Source: a bacterium
GTDB taxonomy: Bacteria; Sumerlaeota; Sumerlaeia; MVZB01
Length of the DNA: 40,340 nucleotides
Direction: 5' to 3'
NCBI GenBank assembly: GCA_021372575.1
Contig: JAJFUE010000123.1
Coordinates: forward strand, 1 to 40,340
Shown here: positions 2,824-40,168 of the stretch, in pieces
Position numbering within the stretch: position 1 is the first letter of the stretch
How the letters are laid out: every line of letters begins with the position of its first letter
The notes under the pieces: model-generated
Databases searched by the model: none
What the model was told of the DNA's origin: nothing
What the model saw: the letters and a program-made list of their open reading frames with translations, nothing else
Program-made: the position numbers and the translations under genes

Positions 2824-3426
2824 TCAGCTTGTCGGATTGCGCATGATGTTGCCGTCGCTGATCGTGCCGTTGGTGGGGTCGTAGGCGATCATCGGGTTCC
2901 ATGAGCGGTCGGGGCCGATGCACAGGACGCGCCACGGGCCGATGCGCTCGAGCGCACGCTGCGCGGGGCCGTATTTGCCCTGCAGCACCGGATACGCCGC
3001 GGCTTTCTCCCCCAGCTCCGCGATATTTTCGTAACTGAACCGCCGCCAGATTGTGTCGGGGAAATCCCCGCTGCGCGCGATGTCGCCGCCGAACGGACAC
3101 CGCAGGTCGGCCGTGGCGAGGTAGGAGACCGGCGTGCTGAGCGAGTCGGGAACATACCACCACTTGAGGTCGCTGCCGGCCAGGGGCATCACGCCGCCGG
3201 CAAATCCGGGAGAAATCATTGTCGGGTAGGCGTTGAAATCGATGTGGTAGGACTCGATCGCGGCGGCGACCGCGCGCAGGTCGGCCTGCGCCCGGGAAAC
3301 GCGCGCGCGCATTTGCGCCTCGAGCATGTTGGGAACGGCGATGGCCGCCAGGATCGCGATGATCGCGACGACGATAAGGAGTTCGATGAGGGTGAAGGCC
3401 GAATGAATGGGTCTTATCTGTCCCAT
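2824..3426 (-). CDS. Type II/IV pseudopilin-like protein with prepilin N-terminus
   Basis: The protein begins with a short basic leader, then AFTLIELLIVVAIIAILA, the class III prepilin signal and hydrophobic spine, followed by VPNMLEAQMRARVSRA. Prepilin peptidase would cut before Phe; residue -1 is Ala rather than the usual Gly. The C-terminal part holds YDPTNGTISDGNI, which recurs in the pseudopilin at 6255-6932. At 200 residues it fits a minor pseudopilin or secreted pilin-like protein anchored in the inner membrane. The start ATG lies 5 bp after the stop of the upstream HEAT-like gene, with AGAGAAGGGG inside that gene's end, so the two genes are probably co-translated. Its pilus or secretion system is not in the window. 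Confidence 0.85.
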   Translation of the reverse strand: MGQIRPIHSAFTLIELLIVVAIIAILAAIAVPNMLEAQMRARVSRAQADLRAVAAAIESYHIDFNAYPTMISPGFAGGVMPLAGSDLKWWYVPDSLSTPVSYLATADLRCPFGGDIARSGDFPDTIWRRFSYENIAELGEKAAAYPVLQGKYGPAQRALERIGPWRVLCIGPDRSWNPMIAYDPTNGTISDGNIMRNPTS

Positions 3427-3431
3427 GGCGA

Positions 3432-5954
3432 TCAGCCCCTTCTCTCTTTTCTTGCACGGAATGCGGCACGGCGGCGCTCGAGCTCGTTGGTCCAGGAGCT
3501 GCCCTGGGCCGGCGGAGGCGCGGGCTGCTCGCCCGCCGGGCCCGAATCCAGCGGAGCCGGCTCGGCCTTGAGAATCATGTTTTCGTACTTCTGGTCAGAC
3601 GTGGGCGCGGAACCGGGCGCGGGTTCGGGCTCGGCGGCGAACGCGCCGCGCAGGTAGTGGGCAAGCTCCTCGTCCTCGACGCACGCCGCGATCTGGCGAT
3701 CGAACAGCTTGTCGTAAGGGGCGCGCTTGGGCAGCTCGCGCCGGATGAATTCGACGATCCGCTCCAGCAGCACGCCCTCGAGCCGGTCCGGGTCCTCGAG
3801 CAGCCTGAGCATGAACTCGTCGAACTCGACGTCGCCCGGCAGCGGGTGGAAATACGCCGCGAGCGCCGCATACGCCGCGCCGGCGACGAGCTGATTCTTA
3901 TTCGCAAGCTGCCCGACGATGACCGGAACGGCCTCAGCCTGGCGCATGCGCCCGAGCGTGGCCAGCGCGGCGATCTGCGTCTTGTGGCTGGTGAGCAGGC
4001 CGCCCTTGGCCCGGCTCATGGCCTGGCGCAGCTCCCGCTCATCGACCTTGACCGCCTTGGCGCGCCGGCTGAACGAATGCAGGCTGCCGAACTTGAGCTT
4101 CGTGTCGAGCAGGATCTTCGTCGTGCTGTCGCCCGGCGAAACGATGCGGCCGGCCTGGACTTGGTCGGCGAAATCGAGGACGACGCCCCGGCCGGCATCG
4201 CCGCCGATCTTGAGGAGCGTGTAGAGGTGCGTGTTGACGAGGTCGTCGCGGTCCAGATCGACGAGCTTGTCGGTGGCGATGTCGCGCACCTTTTCGCGGA
4301 AAATCTGCGACTGCTTCGGATCCTCGACGTAGGTGATCGCGATGCGCGTCATGGATTCCAGCAACGGCACGGCACGCTCGTCGCCGATGGCCTGCAGCGC
4401 CTCGGCGAACGAGCCCATCGCGCCGCTGAAGCGCGTGGCGTGCTTCGTCGCTTCGTCGAGCATGTCCGGGAGGGCTTCCGGCCCGAACTTCTTGAGCGCG
4501 TTGACCATCGGGACGCGCCAGCCGCTGTCGGCGGTGGCCCCGGCCGGGGCCGCCGACCAAAGCGCAGCCACGACCTTGCGCGCGGCGAGCGCGCGAAGGT
4601 CCGGGTCCAGGTCGTCGAGCTTCATGCTGAACATTTCGCTCGCCGCGGTAAACGAGAGCTGGCGGGCCTCGTTCTCGACAAGCTCCATCACGCGGCGGAC
4701 AATCTGGTTGCGCGTCCTGGCATCGAGCCCGCGGCCGCGCGCAAGCCTGCCGAGCCCCGTCAGCAAAACATACGCCCGGCGCTCGTTGGCGGGGTCGGCA
4801 ATGCGACGGATGCAGTGCTGCAGGCGCTTGGTGAGAATTTCGCCCGCGTCGGGATTGGCGATCCGGCCGAGCGCATCGACGATCAGCTCCTCCTCGCGCT
4901 CGACGTCGGTTTTCTCATACCACGCGCGAAGCTGCTCAAAAAAGTCCTCGTGGCGCAGCCCACCCATGATGCCGGCGAGGAGCTGAAGCCGATTCTTGCC
5001 GCCCTCGGGCGCGCGCGCCAGCTCCAGGACCCCCTTGCGCAGCGTCGGGTTCTGGCCGAGGCTGACCATGGCGCGCACGGCGCACAACTTGGCGCGCGGG
5101 CCGAGCCTGGTGAAGATGCGGTCCTCGACTCCGGCGGCGTTGGCGATGCGCGAGGGGTCGGACGGGCAGTAATCATAGATGACGGTCAGTGCGTCGATGA
5201 AGAGCTCGATGCGGCCATGGGCCAGGCTGGCGCGCAGGATCGCCATGCACTCGCCGGCGAAACGTTCCACCTGCTCGGGGGTCGGCTCGTCGGCCTCCAT
5301 CGGCCCGGGCAGCCACGACTGCATGTGCACGATCGCCTGCGTAAGGCGTTGGCGCCACTCGCGCTCGCCGGTCTCGAAGGCACTCTGCCCGGTCTGGCGC
5401 GAGATCGCGGCGAAATGCTCGGATATGAAACGCGCCCCGGCCGTGGCCTTGCCCCCGCTCTTGGCGATCAGCCCGATGATCTGCGGGACGCGATCCCGGT
5501 CGTGGTAAAGCGTCGCCAGCGCCAGCGACAGGTAGCGCGCCTGCTGGACAAGCTCTTCCTGGTTGCCCGCGAGCTCGAGCATGGCCGCGCCCAGGCGGCC
5601 CGCTTCCTTGTAGTCGCGCGTCACGATCGATCGGCGGCACTCGCGCGCGAGGCGCTCCTGGGTGATGCCGGGCAGTTCGCCGAGCCAGAACTTCGTCCGC
5701 TCGATCGGTTGCTTCAGGCGGCGCTCGATTGCGTTGGCGATCGGCTCGGGCAGGTCCAGCTCCATGTCGGCGCAAAAGGCGTGCACCGGCTCCACGCGGA
5801 AGCGGTCATAAACGGCCGCGACCATGTCGGCCGCATCGGCGGCGATGCGGTCCATCTGGTCGGGCTGCGAACGCGCGATGGTGCAGAGCCGGGCGCGTGC
5901 GGCGGCTGCTTGACCATCGAGCAAAAGGGCTTGAAAATCTTTCATGACAAACAT
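3432..5954 (-). CDS. Large HEAT/ARM-like helical repeat protein, function unknown
   Basis: I recognise no enzyme family. The 840-residue protein is almost all amphipathic helices rich in Ala, Leu and Arg. Several helix pairs resemble HEAT repeats, such as LIVDALGRIANPDAGEI near the middle and VPVIVGQLANKNQLVAGAAY near the C-terminus. There is no signal peptide or membrane segment, so it is probably a cytoplasmic scaffold. The last 60 residues are Pro/Ala rich and then basic (RRRAAFRARKERRG). Start choice is uncertain: ATG 5954 (MFV) and ATG 5945 (MKDFQALL) both lack a good ribosome binding site. It sits 5 bp upstream of a pseudopilin gene on the same strand, hinting at a role linked to pilus or secretion assembly, but that is inference from position only. 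Confidence 0.75.
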   Translation of the reverse strand: MFVMKDFQALLLDGQAAAARARLCTIARSQPDQMDRIAADAADMVAAVYDRFRVEPVHAFCADMELDLPEPIANAIERRLKQPIERTKFWLGELPGITQERLARECRRSIVTRDYKEAGRLGAAMLELAGNQEELVQQARYLSLALATLYHDRDRVPQIIGLIAKSGGKATAGARFISEHFAAISRQTGQSAFETGEREWRQRLTQAIVHMQSWLPGPMEADEPTPEQVERFAGECMAILRASLAHGRIELFIDALTVIYDYCPSDPSRIANAAGVEDRIFTRLGPRAKLCAVRAMVSLGQNPTLRKGVLELARAPEGGKNRLQLLAGIMGGLRHEDFFEQLRAWYEKTDVEREEELIVDALGRIANPDAGEILTKRLQHCIRRIADPANERRAYVLLTGLGRLARGRGLDARTRNQIVRRVMELVENEARQLSFTAASEMFSMKLDDLDPDLRALAARKVVAALWSAAPAGATADSGWRVPMVNALKKFGPEALPDMLDEATKHATRFSGAMGSFAEALQAIGDERAVPLLESMTRIAITYVEDPKQSQIFREKVRDIATDKLVDLDRDDLVNTHLYTLLKIGGDAGRGVVLDFADQVQAGRIVSPGDSTTKILLDTKLKFGSLHSFSRRAKAVKVDERELRQAMSRAKGGLLTSHKTQIAALATLGRMRQAEAVPVIVGQLANKNQLVAGAAYAALAAYFHPLPGDVEFDEFMLRLLEDPDRLEGVLLERIVEFIRRELPKRAPYDKLFDRQIAACVEDEELAHYLRGAFAAEPEPAPGSAPTSDQKYENMILKAEPAPLDSGPAGEQPAPPPAQGSSWTNELERRRAAFRARKERRG

Positions 5955-6254
5955 CCAGGACCACGGAACGGCTTGCGAAAGGATCGCAAAACGCAGAACG
6001 AACCTCGCCCCATGATATTAAATTCGGAATGTGAACGGGGCAAGGGATTAGTGCGATATGCGGAGTTGACTGGACGGGCACGTCACCGGTGAACGATGCC
6101 GTTTAAAGGCAACTTATGCATGCTTCTTGTCCCTGCGTCTTCGTGGTTCCAATTTGTGAAAATCAAGGTGTTCAGTTTGCTCTGGAAACTCTTTCCTATG
6201 GTTTGTTACATTCGCACGCGAAGTGGACGTTCAATTAAATCGGGATCTAACACG

Positions 6255-6932
6255 ATGCGTCCTGGCGCTTCCTCATTCCGCATTCGCAAGGGTTTCACCC
6301 TGATCGAACTGCTGATTGTCGTGGCCATCATCGGAATCCTCGCGGCGATCGCGGTGCCGAATTTTCTGGAGGCGCAGACGCGGGCGAAGATTACGCGCGT
6401 GCGCGCCGATCACCGCGCGTTCCGCACCGCGATCGAGGCCTATCACGTCGATGAGCTTGCCTACCCCTGCGCCGAGAGCAACGGCACCCTCAAATGGCTT
6501 CACCCGCTCACGACGCCGATCGCTTACCTCGCCGACATCAAAATCCTCGAGGACCCGTTCAGCGTGGGCGCCGACGCCAAGGACCTGCAAACGCTGCGCA
6601 GCTACCGCAATTACCGATATTTCGGCTTCAACGAAATGGGGTTCGTGAACACGGACAAATACACTGGCAAGATGATTCCCGTTTATTCGCCAGCGGGGAC
6701 GATGAAGGTGTTTTACTATGTCTTGTTCAGCGCCGGACCGGACAAGATCCGGAGCATCGGCAGCAACGGCGGGACGTTTTTGCAAAGCGAAAACCTGTTT
6801 GCCCCCGACCGGTTTATCGAGTTCATCTACGACCCGACGAACGGGACGGTAAGCAACGGGGAGATTCTTTCGGCCGGCGGAGAAATCATTGGCCGAGCAG
6901 AGAAATCCGTTCGGCTGATTCAGGTGAATTAA
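6255..6932 (+). CDS. Type II/IV pseudopilin-like protein with prepilin N-terminus
   Basis: This 225-residue protein has a textbook prepilin start: a basic leader ending IRKG, cleavage before FTLIELLIVVAIIGILA, then VPNFLEAQTRAKITRVRAD. The body has the aromatic and Gly-rich pattern of G-type pseudopilins and ends with YDPTNGTVSNGEI plus about 20 residues. That motif is shared with the pseudopilin at 2824-3426. I chose ATG 6255 because it gives a normal 13-residue leader; the frame stays open upstream to 6096, but that extension is Leu/Phe rich with no pilin character. The gene is transcribed away from the HEAT-like/pseudopilin pair across a gap of about 300 bp with no other gene. Confidence 0.87.
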   Translation: MRPGASSFRIRKGFTLIELLIVVAIIGILAAIAVPNFLEAQTRAKITRVRADHRAFRTAIEAYHVDELAYPCAESNGTLKWLHPLTTPIAYLADIKILEDPFSVGADAKDLQTLRSYRNYRYFGFNEMGFVNTDKYTGKMIPVYSPAGTMKVFYYVLFSAGPDKIRSIGSNGGTFLQSENLFAPDRFIEFIYDPTNGTVSNGEILSAGGEIIGRAEKSVRLIQVN

Positions 6933-37836: not shown

Positions 37837-39237
37837 ATGGCCTCCACGAAAAAAACCGCTCGCTCATCCCGCCCGCTTCGCGTCGGCATCGTCACGCTCG
37901 GCTGCGACAAGAACACCGTCGATAACGAATACCTCGCCGGCCTCCTCGACGAGGCCGGCTGCGAGATCGTCACCACGCGCCGCGATGGCGACCCGCCGCT
38001 CGACGCCGTCGTCGTCACCACGTGCGGATTCATCGGCGACGCCCGCGAACAGTCGGTCGATGCCATCGTGCAACTCGCCGAGGACAAGCGCCTGCGCGGC
38101 AACCCCCGCCGCCTGTTCGTCGCCGGCTGCCTCAGCCAGCGCTGCGGCGAGGAACTCATGACGGAGATCCCCGAGATCGACGGCCTCGCCGGCGTCGGAC
38201 AATTTGAACAGCTCGCAAAGATGATCTTGAAAACCGACGGCAGGGCGACGCGTTCGATCGCGGTCAATACCCCGCCGCGCGTCGAAATTGACAAGCTCAT
38301 CAGGCGCCGCCCGCTCGCGCCGCGCCCCTACGCCTTCCTCAAGATCGGCGACGGCTGCGACCACAACTGCTCCTTCTGCTCGATCCCGCTCATCAAGGGC
38401 CGCCTGCGCTCCGTCCCGCCCGAGATCGCGCTGGCCGAGGCCCGCGCCCTCCTCAAGCGCGGCGTCCGCGAGATCAACCTCGTCGCCCAGGACCTCTCCG
38501 CATGGGGCCTCGACCGCTGGCCCAACTGGCGCCTGCCGCGCCTCGTGCGCCAAATCTGCAAAATCCCCGGCGACTTCTGGTTGCGCTGCCTCTACGTCTA
38601 TCCCGGCCCCATCGCCGACGAACTGATCGACGTCATGGCGTCCGAGCCCAAGGTCGTCCCGTACCTCGACATGCCGCTGCAACACCTCGACCCCGACGTC
38701 CTGCACCGCATGAAACGCCCCTTCCTCGAGCGCAATACGTTCGAGATGGTCGGCCGCCTGCGCGCGGCGCTCCCCTCGCTCACGCTGCGCACGACGATGA
38801 TCGTCGGATTCCCCGGCGAGACCGCCGCCGCCCACCGCCGCCTCATCGACGGCATCCAATCCCTGCGCTTCGACCGCCTCGGCGCGTTCGAATATTCGCC
38901 CGAGTCCGACACCCCCGCCTCCACCATGCCCCTGCAGGTCTCCCCACGCACCCGCCGCCGGCGCTGGCATGCGGTCATGGCCACGCAGGCCGCCATCGCG
39001 CTCCAGCTCAACCAGGCCCGCCTCGGCCGCACCGAGCGCGTCCTGATCGAGGGATTCGACCCCCAACGCAAGGCTTACATCGGCCGCAGCGCCGCCGAAG
39101 CGCCCGAGGTGGACGGTAAAATTTACATCTCAAGCTCCCGCCAGCTTGAAACTGGTTTATTTACAGACGTTCACATCACAAAAGCCGAGCCTTACGACCT
39201 GTTCGCAGTGGCCGCGGACGGCATGGCGACCCGCTAA
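37837..39237 (+). CDS. rimO: Ribosomal protein S12 methylthiotransferase RimO
   Basis: RimO is a radical-SAM enzyme that adds a methylthio group to an Asp of ribosomal protein S12. The 466-residue protein has the UPF0004 domain with a first iron-sulfur cluster from Cys23 (TLGCDKNTVDNEYLAG), Cys63 (VTTCGFIGDAREQS) and Cys98 (VAGCLSQR). The radical-SAM triad is Cys174, Cys178 and Cys181 (GDGCDHNCSFCSIPLIKGRL). A C-terminal TRAM domain follows. LGCDKN-x-VD and CGFIGDAREQSVDAI favour RimO over MiaB (which uses GCQMN and NTC). GAGG is 7 bp before ATG 37837. Confidence 0.94.
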   Translation: MASTKKTARSSRPLRVGIVTLGCDKNTVDNEYLAGLLDEAGCEIVTTRRDGDPPLDAVVVTTCGFIGDAREQSVDAIVQLAEDKRLRGNPRRLFVAGCLSQRCGEELMTEIPEIDGLAGVGQFEQLAKMILKTDGRATRSIAVNTPPRVEIDKLIRRRPLAPRPYAFLKIGDGCDHNCSFCSIPLIKGRLRSVPPEIALAEARALLKRGVREINLVAQDLSAWGLDRWPNWRLPRLVRQICKIPGDFWLRCLYVYPGPIADELIDVMASEPKVVPYLDMPLQHLDPDVLHRMKRPFLERNTFEMVGRLRAALPSLTLRTTMIVGFPGETAAAHRRLIDGIQSLRFDRLGAFEYSPESDTPASTMPLQVSPRTRRRRWHAVMATQAAIALQLNQARLGRTERVLIEGFDPQRKAYIGRSAAEAPEVDGKIYISSSRQLETGLFTDVHITKAEPYDLFAVAADGMATR

Positions 39238-39258
39238 AAAATGGCGATTTGTGCAATC

Positions 39259-39341
39259 GCTTGCAACATGCCGCAAGCCCTTTCATCGATCCTGCCACAT
39301 TAAAATATATTAACCTATCGGTAAGCTGTCTATTTTCAGCT
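39259..39341. other. Inverted repeats upstream of the sigma-54 promoter
   Basis: GCTTGC (39259-39264) with GCAAGC (39273-39278), and AGCTG (39324-39328) with CAGCT (39337-39341), lie 30-115 bp upstream of the sigma-54 site, where an enhancer-binding protein would bind. The rest of the 39238-39445 gap is AT-rich and holds no gene. Confidence 0.4.
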
Positions 39342-39372: not shown

Positions 39373-39388
39373 TGGCACGCTCAATGCT
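39373..39388 (+). promoter_or_regulatory. Sigma-54 (-24/-12) promoter for the PEP-CTERM gene
   Basis: TGGCACG (39373-39379), four bases, then ATGCT (39384-39388). The invariant GG (39374-39375) and GC (39386-39387) are exactly 12 bp apart, and only one core position differs from TGGCACG-N4-TTGC. It lies 58 bp upstream of ATG 39446 in the right orientation. Confidence 0.78.
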
Positions 39389-39445
39389 AAGTAGTTGTCC
39401 AATCATCTCTATGGTGATGCAGAGTTTAGTAAGGAACAGCCTCCC

Positions 39446-40168
39446 ATGACGAAGAAATTCGCAGCCGTACTGGCACTGGCACTGTCCGTCTTGGCCATGT
39501 CGCCCGCCATGGCGCTCAGCCTCATTAACCCCGGCGATCATGGAACGATTAACGGGGCGCTGTTCTATCGCTCGGATCCCAATCCGACCGGCACCGGCAC
39601 CATCGACTCGTTCCTGCGCGTTCAGCATAATGACAGCGAGCAGGGTTACAACACCGACGGTGGAAACCCGATGGACGATAAGGGCGGAAATTTCACGCAC
39701 TCGATCAGGCTCAACGGCGTCGGCCGCGTCAGTTTCGACAACGGCCAGACCTACTACCGCGAATTCATGCTCGACGCCAACGAGGTCCAGGCCCATCCGA
39801 CCCTGACGATGACCTCGCTCAAGATTTACCTCGAGTCCACCGGCAACATGTTGGGTTACCCCACCGGTTTCGGGACCCCCATCTATGACTTGGGCGTGGG
39901 TAACTCGATCGATCTCACCGCCGCCCCGGGCAGCGGCCGCGGCGACATGTTCGCTTACATCCCCGACGCGCTGTTCACGGGCCCGATCGCCAATCCGTAC
40001 GTCTATCTCTATTGCAGCTTCACCGGCACTGATGACGGCATTGAAGAATGGGCCGTCCAGGGCAACACGGACGACCCCCCGCCGTCCGTCCCCGAACCGA
40101 TGACGCTCTCGCTGCTCGGCTTGGGCCTCGGATTGGGCGCGCTCATGCGCCGCAGAGTCACCCGCTGA
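39446..40168 (+). CDS. PEP-CTERM sorted exported protein
   Basis: The 240-residue protein has an N-terminal signal peptide (KKFAAVLALALSVLAMSPAM, cut near MAL) and a C-terminal PEP-CTERM sorting signal. The latter starts at about residue 215: VPEP, a hydrophobic stretch LSLLGLGLGLGALM, and the basic end RRRVTR. Exosortase would cleave after the PEP motif and attach the protein at the surface or release it, often with exopolysaccharide. The mature domain is Gly/Asp/Tyr rich with no family I recognise. AAGGA is 10 bp before the ATG. The upstream promoter is sigma-54 type, as reported for PEP-CTERM genes under PrsK/PrsR control. Exosortase is not in the window. Confidence 0.9.
   Translation: MTKKFAAVLALALSVLAMSPAMALSLINPGDHGTINGALFYRSDPNPTGTGTIDSFLRVQHNDSEQGYNTDGGNPMDDKGGNFTHSIRLNGVGRVSFDNGQTYYREFMLDANEVQAHPTLTMTSLKIYLESTGNMLGYPTGFGTPIYDLGVGNSIDLTAAPGSGRGDMFAYIPDALFTGPIANPYVYLYCSFTGTDDGIEEWAVQGNTDDPPPSVPEPMTLSLLGLGLGLGALMRRRVTR

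Follow-up and report, generated by a model that had tools for sequence, protein, structure and literature searches.

PEP-CTERM protein genes in a bacterial family outside the Proteobacteria are best read, from their upstream sequences, as a sigma-54 regulon that uses an enhancer of its own. The analysis centres on a window of 40,340 bases (by which we mean the whole stretch of DNA analysed), which is contig C63 of a 4.63-Mb draft genome (G000, 95.6% complete). It contains a -24/-12 box that is probably the working promoter of a single-gene PEP-CTERM unit, itself part of a small family-wide regulon in which a Fis-type AAA+ activator would bind a dyad further upstream. The features of the locus are as follows.

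37837-39237, + strand: RimO-like radical SAM protein gene with a TRAM domain, the upstream neighbour
39252-39265, + strand: proposed enhancer (UAS) dyad, TGCAATCGCTTGCA, put forward on the de novo motif, its controls, the cross-genus test and the spacing
39259-39278, no strand assigned: GCTTGC-N8-GCAAGC inverted repeat, its left arm overlapped by the proposed enhancer dyad
39324-39341, no strand assigned: AGCTG-N8-CAGCT inverted repeat, private to the window gene
39373-39388, + strand: sigma-54 -24/-12 promoter box TGGCACG-CTCA-ATGCT, assigned by sequence and by its equivalents before 11 of 12 PEP-CTERM genes
39399 (+/- 2), + strand: predicted transcription start
39446-40168, + strand: PEP-CTERM protein gene (P0001, 240 aa)
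40088-40156, + strand: PEP-CTERM sorting signal, a TIGR02595 match

The original prediction of a TGGCACG-N4-ATGCT element with exact GG/GC spacing was borne out: GG occupies 39374-39375 and GC 39386-39387, with ten bases between them, and inspection of the sequence confirmed that this sigma-54 box stands in front of a PEP-CTERM gene. The box agrees with 11 of the 12 positions of the consensus used for scoring. It has the GG-N10-GC frame and a TGGCA-type -24 element, with ATGC in place of TTGC at -12. On both strands of the window it is the sole site that reaches at least 11/12, the runners-up at 2606 (+) and 2934 (-) having 10/12. Its end is separated from the ATG at 39446 by 57 bp, one base fewer than the 58 bp initially given. 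Transcription from sigma-54 promoters usually starts 12 bases after the GC, the geometry from which the predicted start at 39399 was derived.

The product of the downstream gene, P0001, has a hydrophobic stretch at its N-terminus and a tail composed of VPEP followed by hydrophobic and basic segments. TIGR02595 recognizes it above the cut-off of 16, at 27.5 bits when the genome is searched and at 22.9 bits on the protein, and it aligns end to end with the PepA model at a score below the cut-off (19.4 of 80 bits). P0001 has no match in Pfam and no homologue among 60 relatives at an E value of 0.001. The RimO-like gene ends with a stop codon 208 bp ahead of the PEP-CTERM ATG, and the best matches of its protein are in MAGs named Candidatus Hydrogenedentota or candidate division BRC1, with at most 62% identity over most of the length; the uncultured bacterium behind the window accordingly belongs, in all likelihood, to Candidatus Hydrogenedentota. 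At 36 named RimO loci no credible adjoining PEP-CTERM gene was found, a regular expression returning one implausible ORF. Elsewhere in the window, at 12-2683 and 2824-6932, ORFs resembling flagellar FliD and FliS, as judged by eye, are followed by two ORFs whose N-termini look prepilin-like, again by eye.

The box recurs before PEP-CTERM genes in related genomes. Matches to TIGR02595 above the cut-off numbered 15. The window genome has four, and the two further family members searched, G001 and G002, have six and two; the remaining three come from other parts of the class, in which 6 of 39 genomes have a match. Twelve genes, spanning three genera, had a readable upstream region; L041 and L042 were dropped because the ORF runs off the contig start and thus lacks an upstream region, and L043 because its long VIT-type ORF runs off the locus. 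A VIT-type gene on contig C42 (L004, recognized by Pfam only) and the matches below the cut-off (L005 and L008-L012) were also excluded. The start codon was taken as the first plausible ATG ahead of a signal-peptide-like stretch, and a box was counted when it combined the GG-N10-GC frame with at least 9 of the 12 consensus positions and lay at most 120 bp from the start codon. Eleven of the 12 genes carry such a box, eight of them scoring at least 10 and three at least 11, whereas dinucleotide-shuffled sets averaged 0.31, 0.06 and 0.01 at these three thresholds and none of 1000 reached the real counts. Among 208 native upstreams of other ORFs in the three genomes, a non-random genome sample because the predicted ORFs come mostly from activator-gene loci, the corresponding counts were 9, 2 and 2 (11/12 vs 9/208, Fisher p 1.7e-12). 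The scan of PEP-CTERM genes for -24/-12 sites that had been proposed as a check therefore turned out in favour of the idea. Between the end of the box and the ATG there are 31 to 96 bp, and the boxes of the window genome read TGGCACAGAAATGGCT, TGGCACGCGGGTTGCT, TGGCACGCTCAATGCT and, more weakly, CGGCACGAGATTGGCG. The exception is L039, which has the dyad described below but lacks a box in the interval from there to the ATG; its only box, with 10/12, is 289 bp upstream, on the far (upstream) side of the dyad. The sole controls scoring at least 10 were L032 and L144, activator-locus ORFs with 11/12 boxes located 43 and 55 bp upstream.

A second element is common to these genes. Expectation-maximisation over the regions from -330 to -85 of the 12 genes, on both strands, produced a de novo 17-bp motif with a TGCAA-N4-TTGCA dyad at its core. 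The motif scored 91.8. In 23 shuffled sets, run with fewer starts than the real set, the score was 54.7 +/- 2.6; in 60 control sets, each made of 12 native regions and given as many starts as the real set, it was 58.8 +/- 3.6 and never exceeded 67.8. Under equal starts, four runs on the real set gave 87.9-91.8. In the window the dyad lies 107 bp upstream of the box, and wherever a gene has both elements (11 genes) its end falls 105-151 bp ahead of the box. The dyad of L006 is weak, TGAAA-N4-TTTCA, while its box is the best of the set. When a matrix trained on G001 and G002 was applied to the window genome, none of the 208 controls beat or equalled the window site, and 1, 1 and 3 controls were as good as the sites of the genome's other three genes. 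In the reverse test, which had three training sites only, the sites were matched by 1, 1, 4, 5, 5, 9, 22 and 29 of the 208 controls, and those of L039 (9), L040 (22) and L049 (29) did not stand out. Training and testing across genera thus partly confirm that the dyad is shared, and this test is free of the circularity that affects the matrix used to scan activator genes, which was trained with the window site included.

The 12 upstream regions show no general homology, their pairwise alignments being short and not significant, which argues that box and dyad were not simply inherited with copied promoters. As a composite pattern, dyad plus box gave three matches in the window genome, two of them PEP-CTERM genes; over the class it was no commoner than its reversed control (49 vs 44 matches), so that it is valueless as a genome-wide detector.

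Both of the inverted repeats that the original prediction had placed further up from the box exist, at 39324-39341 and 39259-39278. The first had been suggested as a motif to look for at other PEP-CTERM genes, where it did not materialize: AGCTG-N8-CAGCT is missing from all 11 other upstreams, even with one mismatch allowed, and is ruled out as a common enhancer, as is CTTGC-N8-GCAAG, likewise found in 0 of the 11. Other genes have repeats of their own. L001, the PEP-CTERM gene of contig C103, has a perfect 25-bp inverted repeat with 11-bp arms and a 3-bp centre at -255 from the start codon, and L006 has CTGTAACA-N9-TGTTACAG at -172.

We then turn to the machinery that such promoters would need. 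The window genome holds one copy of rpoN (G000:C12:1840-2316, 197.8 bits), in agreement with what had been anticipated, and the gene was found in 39 of the 41 genomes searched, though not in G002, a genome that is 71% complete. The expected exosortases are there as well, at C156:1575 (211.5 bits) and C42:69941 (76 bits); the former has glycosyltransferase and peptidase genes nearby, with no regulator among the annotated ORFs of its neighbourhood. Together with the boxes before 11 of 12 genes, the presence of rpoN and exosortases is the reason why sigma-54 control of PEP-CTERM genes appears to extend beyond the groups studied previously. The genome also encodes 25 matches to the sigma-54 activator domain PF00158, 22 of them strong. 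The pair that was to accompany them, PrsK and PrsR, did not emerge. Among the 19 of 22 strong activators that were scanned, in a genome 95.6% complete, the best score on the PrsR model (TIGR02915; cut-off 502.6 bits) was the 445.7 bits of L018, and all 19 score higher on AtoC, NtrC, NifA or other models. No PrsK equivalog (TIGR02916) was detected among the kinases of three genomes, where the best reached 137.2 of the required 300. In the window itself, a histidine kinase-like ORF at 25517-26698 matches the PrsK model weakly (46.3 bits), in its kinase part only. The notion that this lineage follows the same logic as Zoogloea therefore holds for RpoN and for the boxes at PEP-CTERM genes, and finds no support where PrsK-PrsR and the AGCTG motif are concerned.

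In sigma-54 systems in general, RpoN polymerase forms a closed complex that an upstream activator opens at the expense of ATP. The components of such a circuit can be read directly in these genomes, namely the boxes, the dyad, the spacing between them, rpoN, activator genes and exosortases, and from them we infer how it might operate. A Fis-type AAA+ enhancer-binding protein would bind the TGCAA-N4-TTGCA dyad, which as a rule lies 105-151 bp ahead of the box. At the box, RpoN polymerase would wait closed until contacted. The dyad-bound activator would reach the polymerase by DNA looping, with which the spacing between dyad and box is compatible, and would hydrolyse ATP to open the promoter. 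The outcome would be joint, signal-dependent production of the PEP-CTERM proteins, which the exosortase of the genome would process on their way to the cell surface.

Which activator recognizes the dyad can be narrowed only in part. A single protein probably serves most of the PEP-CTERM genes, since the dyad is the one element found common to them. A search for autoregulation revealed mostly weak or intragenic dyads near activator genes. The activator-like response regulator represented by L034 and L152 is conserved, occurring in two of the three genera. Neither copy has a recognisable Walker A or GAFTGA motif, and for that reason they are poor candidates; three dyad-like sites lie upstream of L152, the G002 copy. 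The phylogenetic profile rules out L013 and L022 as activators specific for PEP-CTERM genes, because at the threshold used they occur in 33 and 29 of 39 class genomes while PEP-CTERM matches occur in only 6 of 39, and most class genomes with L013 have no PEP-CTERM match. L013 (contig C45) is nevertheless the best scorer on the AtoC model (510.6 of 714). The operator sites of E. coli AtoC, itself a sigma-54 activator, are GCTATGCAGAAATTTGCACA and GCTATGCAGAAAATTGCGCA (PMC3118216, Table 5), which follow TGCA-N6-TGCA/TGCG; the dyad has the same TGCA-N6-TGCA frame, a likeness between short sites compared by sequence. This makes the AtoC-like L013 a lead, although a protein distributed so widely in the class would need further targets.

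The closest precedent for the arrangement is the proteobacterial regulon of Haft et al. 2006 (PMC1569441), who describe a sigma-54 motif, with another motif upstream of it, at 99 of 167 PEP-CTERM genes from Proteobacteria. As in that regulon, the genes here are single units with long upstream regions, carry a -24/-12 box (there at a mean of 71 nt from the start codon, here at 31-96) as well as a further element upstream, about 17 nt long, and are found in a genome with enhancer-binding activators and an exosortase. The upstream elements differ: motif 1 of Haft et al. ends in TTTACA and averages 62.8 nt upstream of the box (32-92 nt), whereas ours is TGCAA-N4-TTGCA at 105-151 bp. TTTACA at the published spacing is absent from 11 of the 12 genes, including the window gene, in a comparison that scored only the TTTACA end of motif 1; in L006 it precedes the box by 44 nt, which is the proteobacterial arrangement. 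A -24/-12 promoter has also been mapped before pepA of Aquincola tertiaricarbonis (TGGCAC / CTGCTT), for which RpoN dependence was shown (PMC9850573); the window gene, unlike pepA, belongs to a different phylum and is known from sequence alone. The control of Zoogloea PEP-CTERM genes by PrsK-PrsR, part of the background to the original prediction, is indeed reported in PMC9012009. In Desulfovibrio vulgaris, a DNA-binding assay of the response regulator DVUA0057 showed enrichment of its predicted PEP-CTERM gene targets; these are the targets predicted by Haft et al., and the regulator, unlike the window system, sits in a plasmid exopolysaccharide operon (PMC3333781). PMC12188702 names RpoN in the reference list only, and we found no paper on PEP-CTERM control in Candidatus Hydrogenedentota in the open-licence PMC literature.

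These parallels raise the question of whether the proteobacterial system itself was carried over, with PrsR binding its own site and driving RpoN-dependent PEP-CTERM genes. The target class and box type are identical and the layout is similar, sigma-54 control of such genes is experimentally supported in Aquincola and reported for Zoogloea, a Desulfovibrio relative of PrsR binds PEP-CTERM promoters, and L018, the closest activator, scores 445.7 bits on the PrsR model. We nonetheless consider a carry-over quite improbable: none of the 19 activators scanned attains 502.6 and all prefer other models, no kinase of the three genomes reaches the PrsK cut-off, TTTACA at 32-92 nt occurs in only one gene of 12 (L006), and the common dyad is a different element placed further upstream. 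Our regulon thus departs from that of PrsK-PrsR in the absence of an equivalog of either protein from the sets scanned.

It is also conceivable that the boxes are real but that the dyad serves an ordinary repressor or a nucleoid protein, each gene having its own activator and a private inverted repeat, such as those of the window gene, L006 and L001. Sigma-54 promoters require an upstream activator site, however, and the dyad is the only common element found, 105-151 bp ahead of the box wherever both occur (11 of 11 genes), so we regard this arrangement as unlikely. Mere coincidence of the window box, with a sigma-70 promoter or transcription running on from the RimO-like gene accounting for expression, deserves very little credence. 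That gene is codirectional with the PEP-CTERM gene, and the AT-rich segment at 39290-39320 could house a sigma-70 promoter; yet a simple scan found no sigma-70-like site on the + strand from 39100 to the gene start, the sole + strand match lying at 39603, within the PEP-CTERM gene, and a box that recurs in 11 of 12 unrelated upstreams can hardly be coincidental.

The preferred reading, a sigma-54 regulon with an enhancer of its own, bears on PEP-CTERM gene regulation outside Proteobacteria, which Haft et al. had left open, their motifs being, according to the authors, common to Proteobacteria only (PMC1569441). The same promoter type combined with a different enhancer and no PrsK/PrsR equivalog found suggests that a tie between sigma-54 and surface-protein export is favoured more widely. 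Tentatively, this control may have arisen independently of PrsK-PrsR: an activator already common in the class would have been co-opted for a novel enhancer, TGCAA-N4-TTGCA, and the enhancer would have spread among unrelated PEP-CTERM genes; if so, the same circuit logic would have been built from different parts. The analysis also supplies some 22 activators and a short DNA motif that are directly testable for binding.

A final observation concerns contig C42 (L094, with L004 and L011), home of the fifth PEP-CTERM gene of the window genome, for which no sigma-54 box was seen at the six starts tested. This long VIT-type gene adjoins the exosortase gene of C42, which is exosortase-Q-like (161.9 of 270 bits), and the two are likely a dedicated pair. 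The VIT label was given by eye, and a similar long protein is present in G015 (L043).
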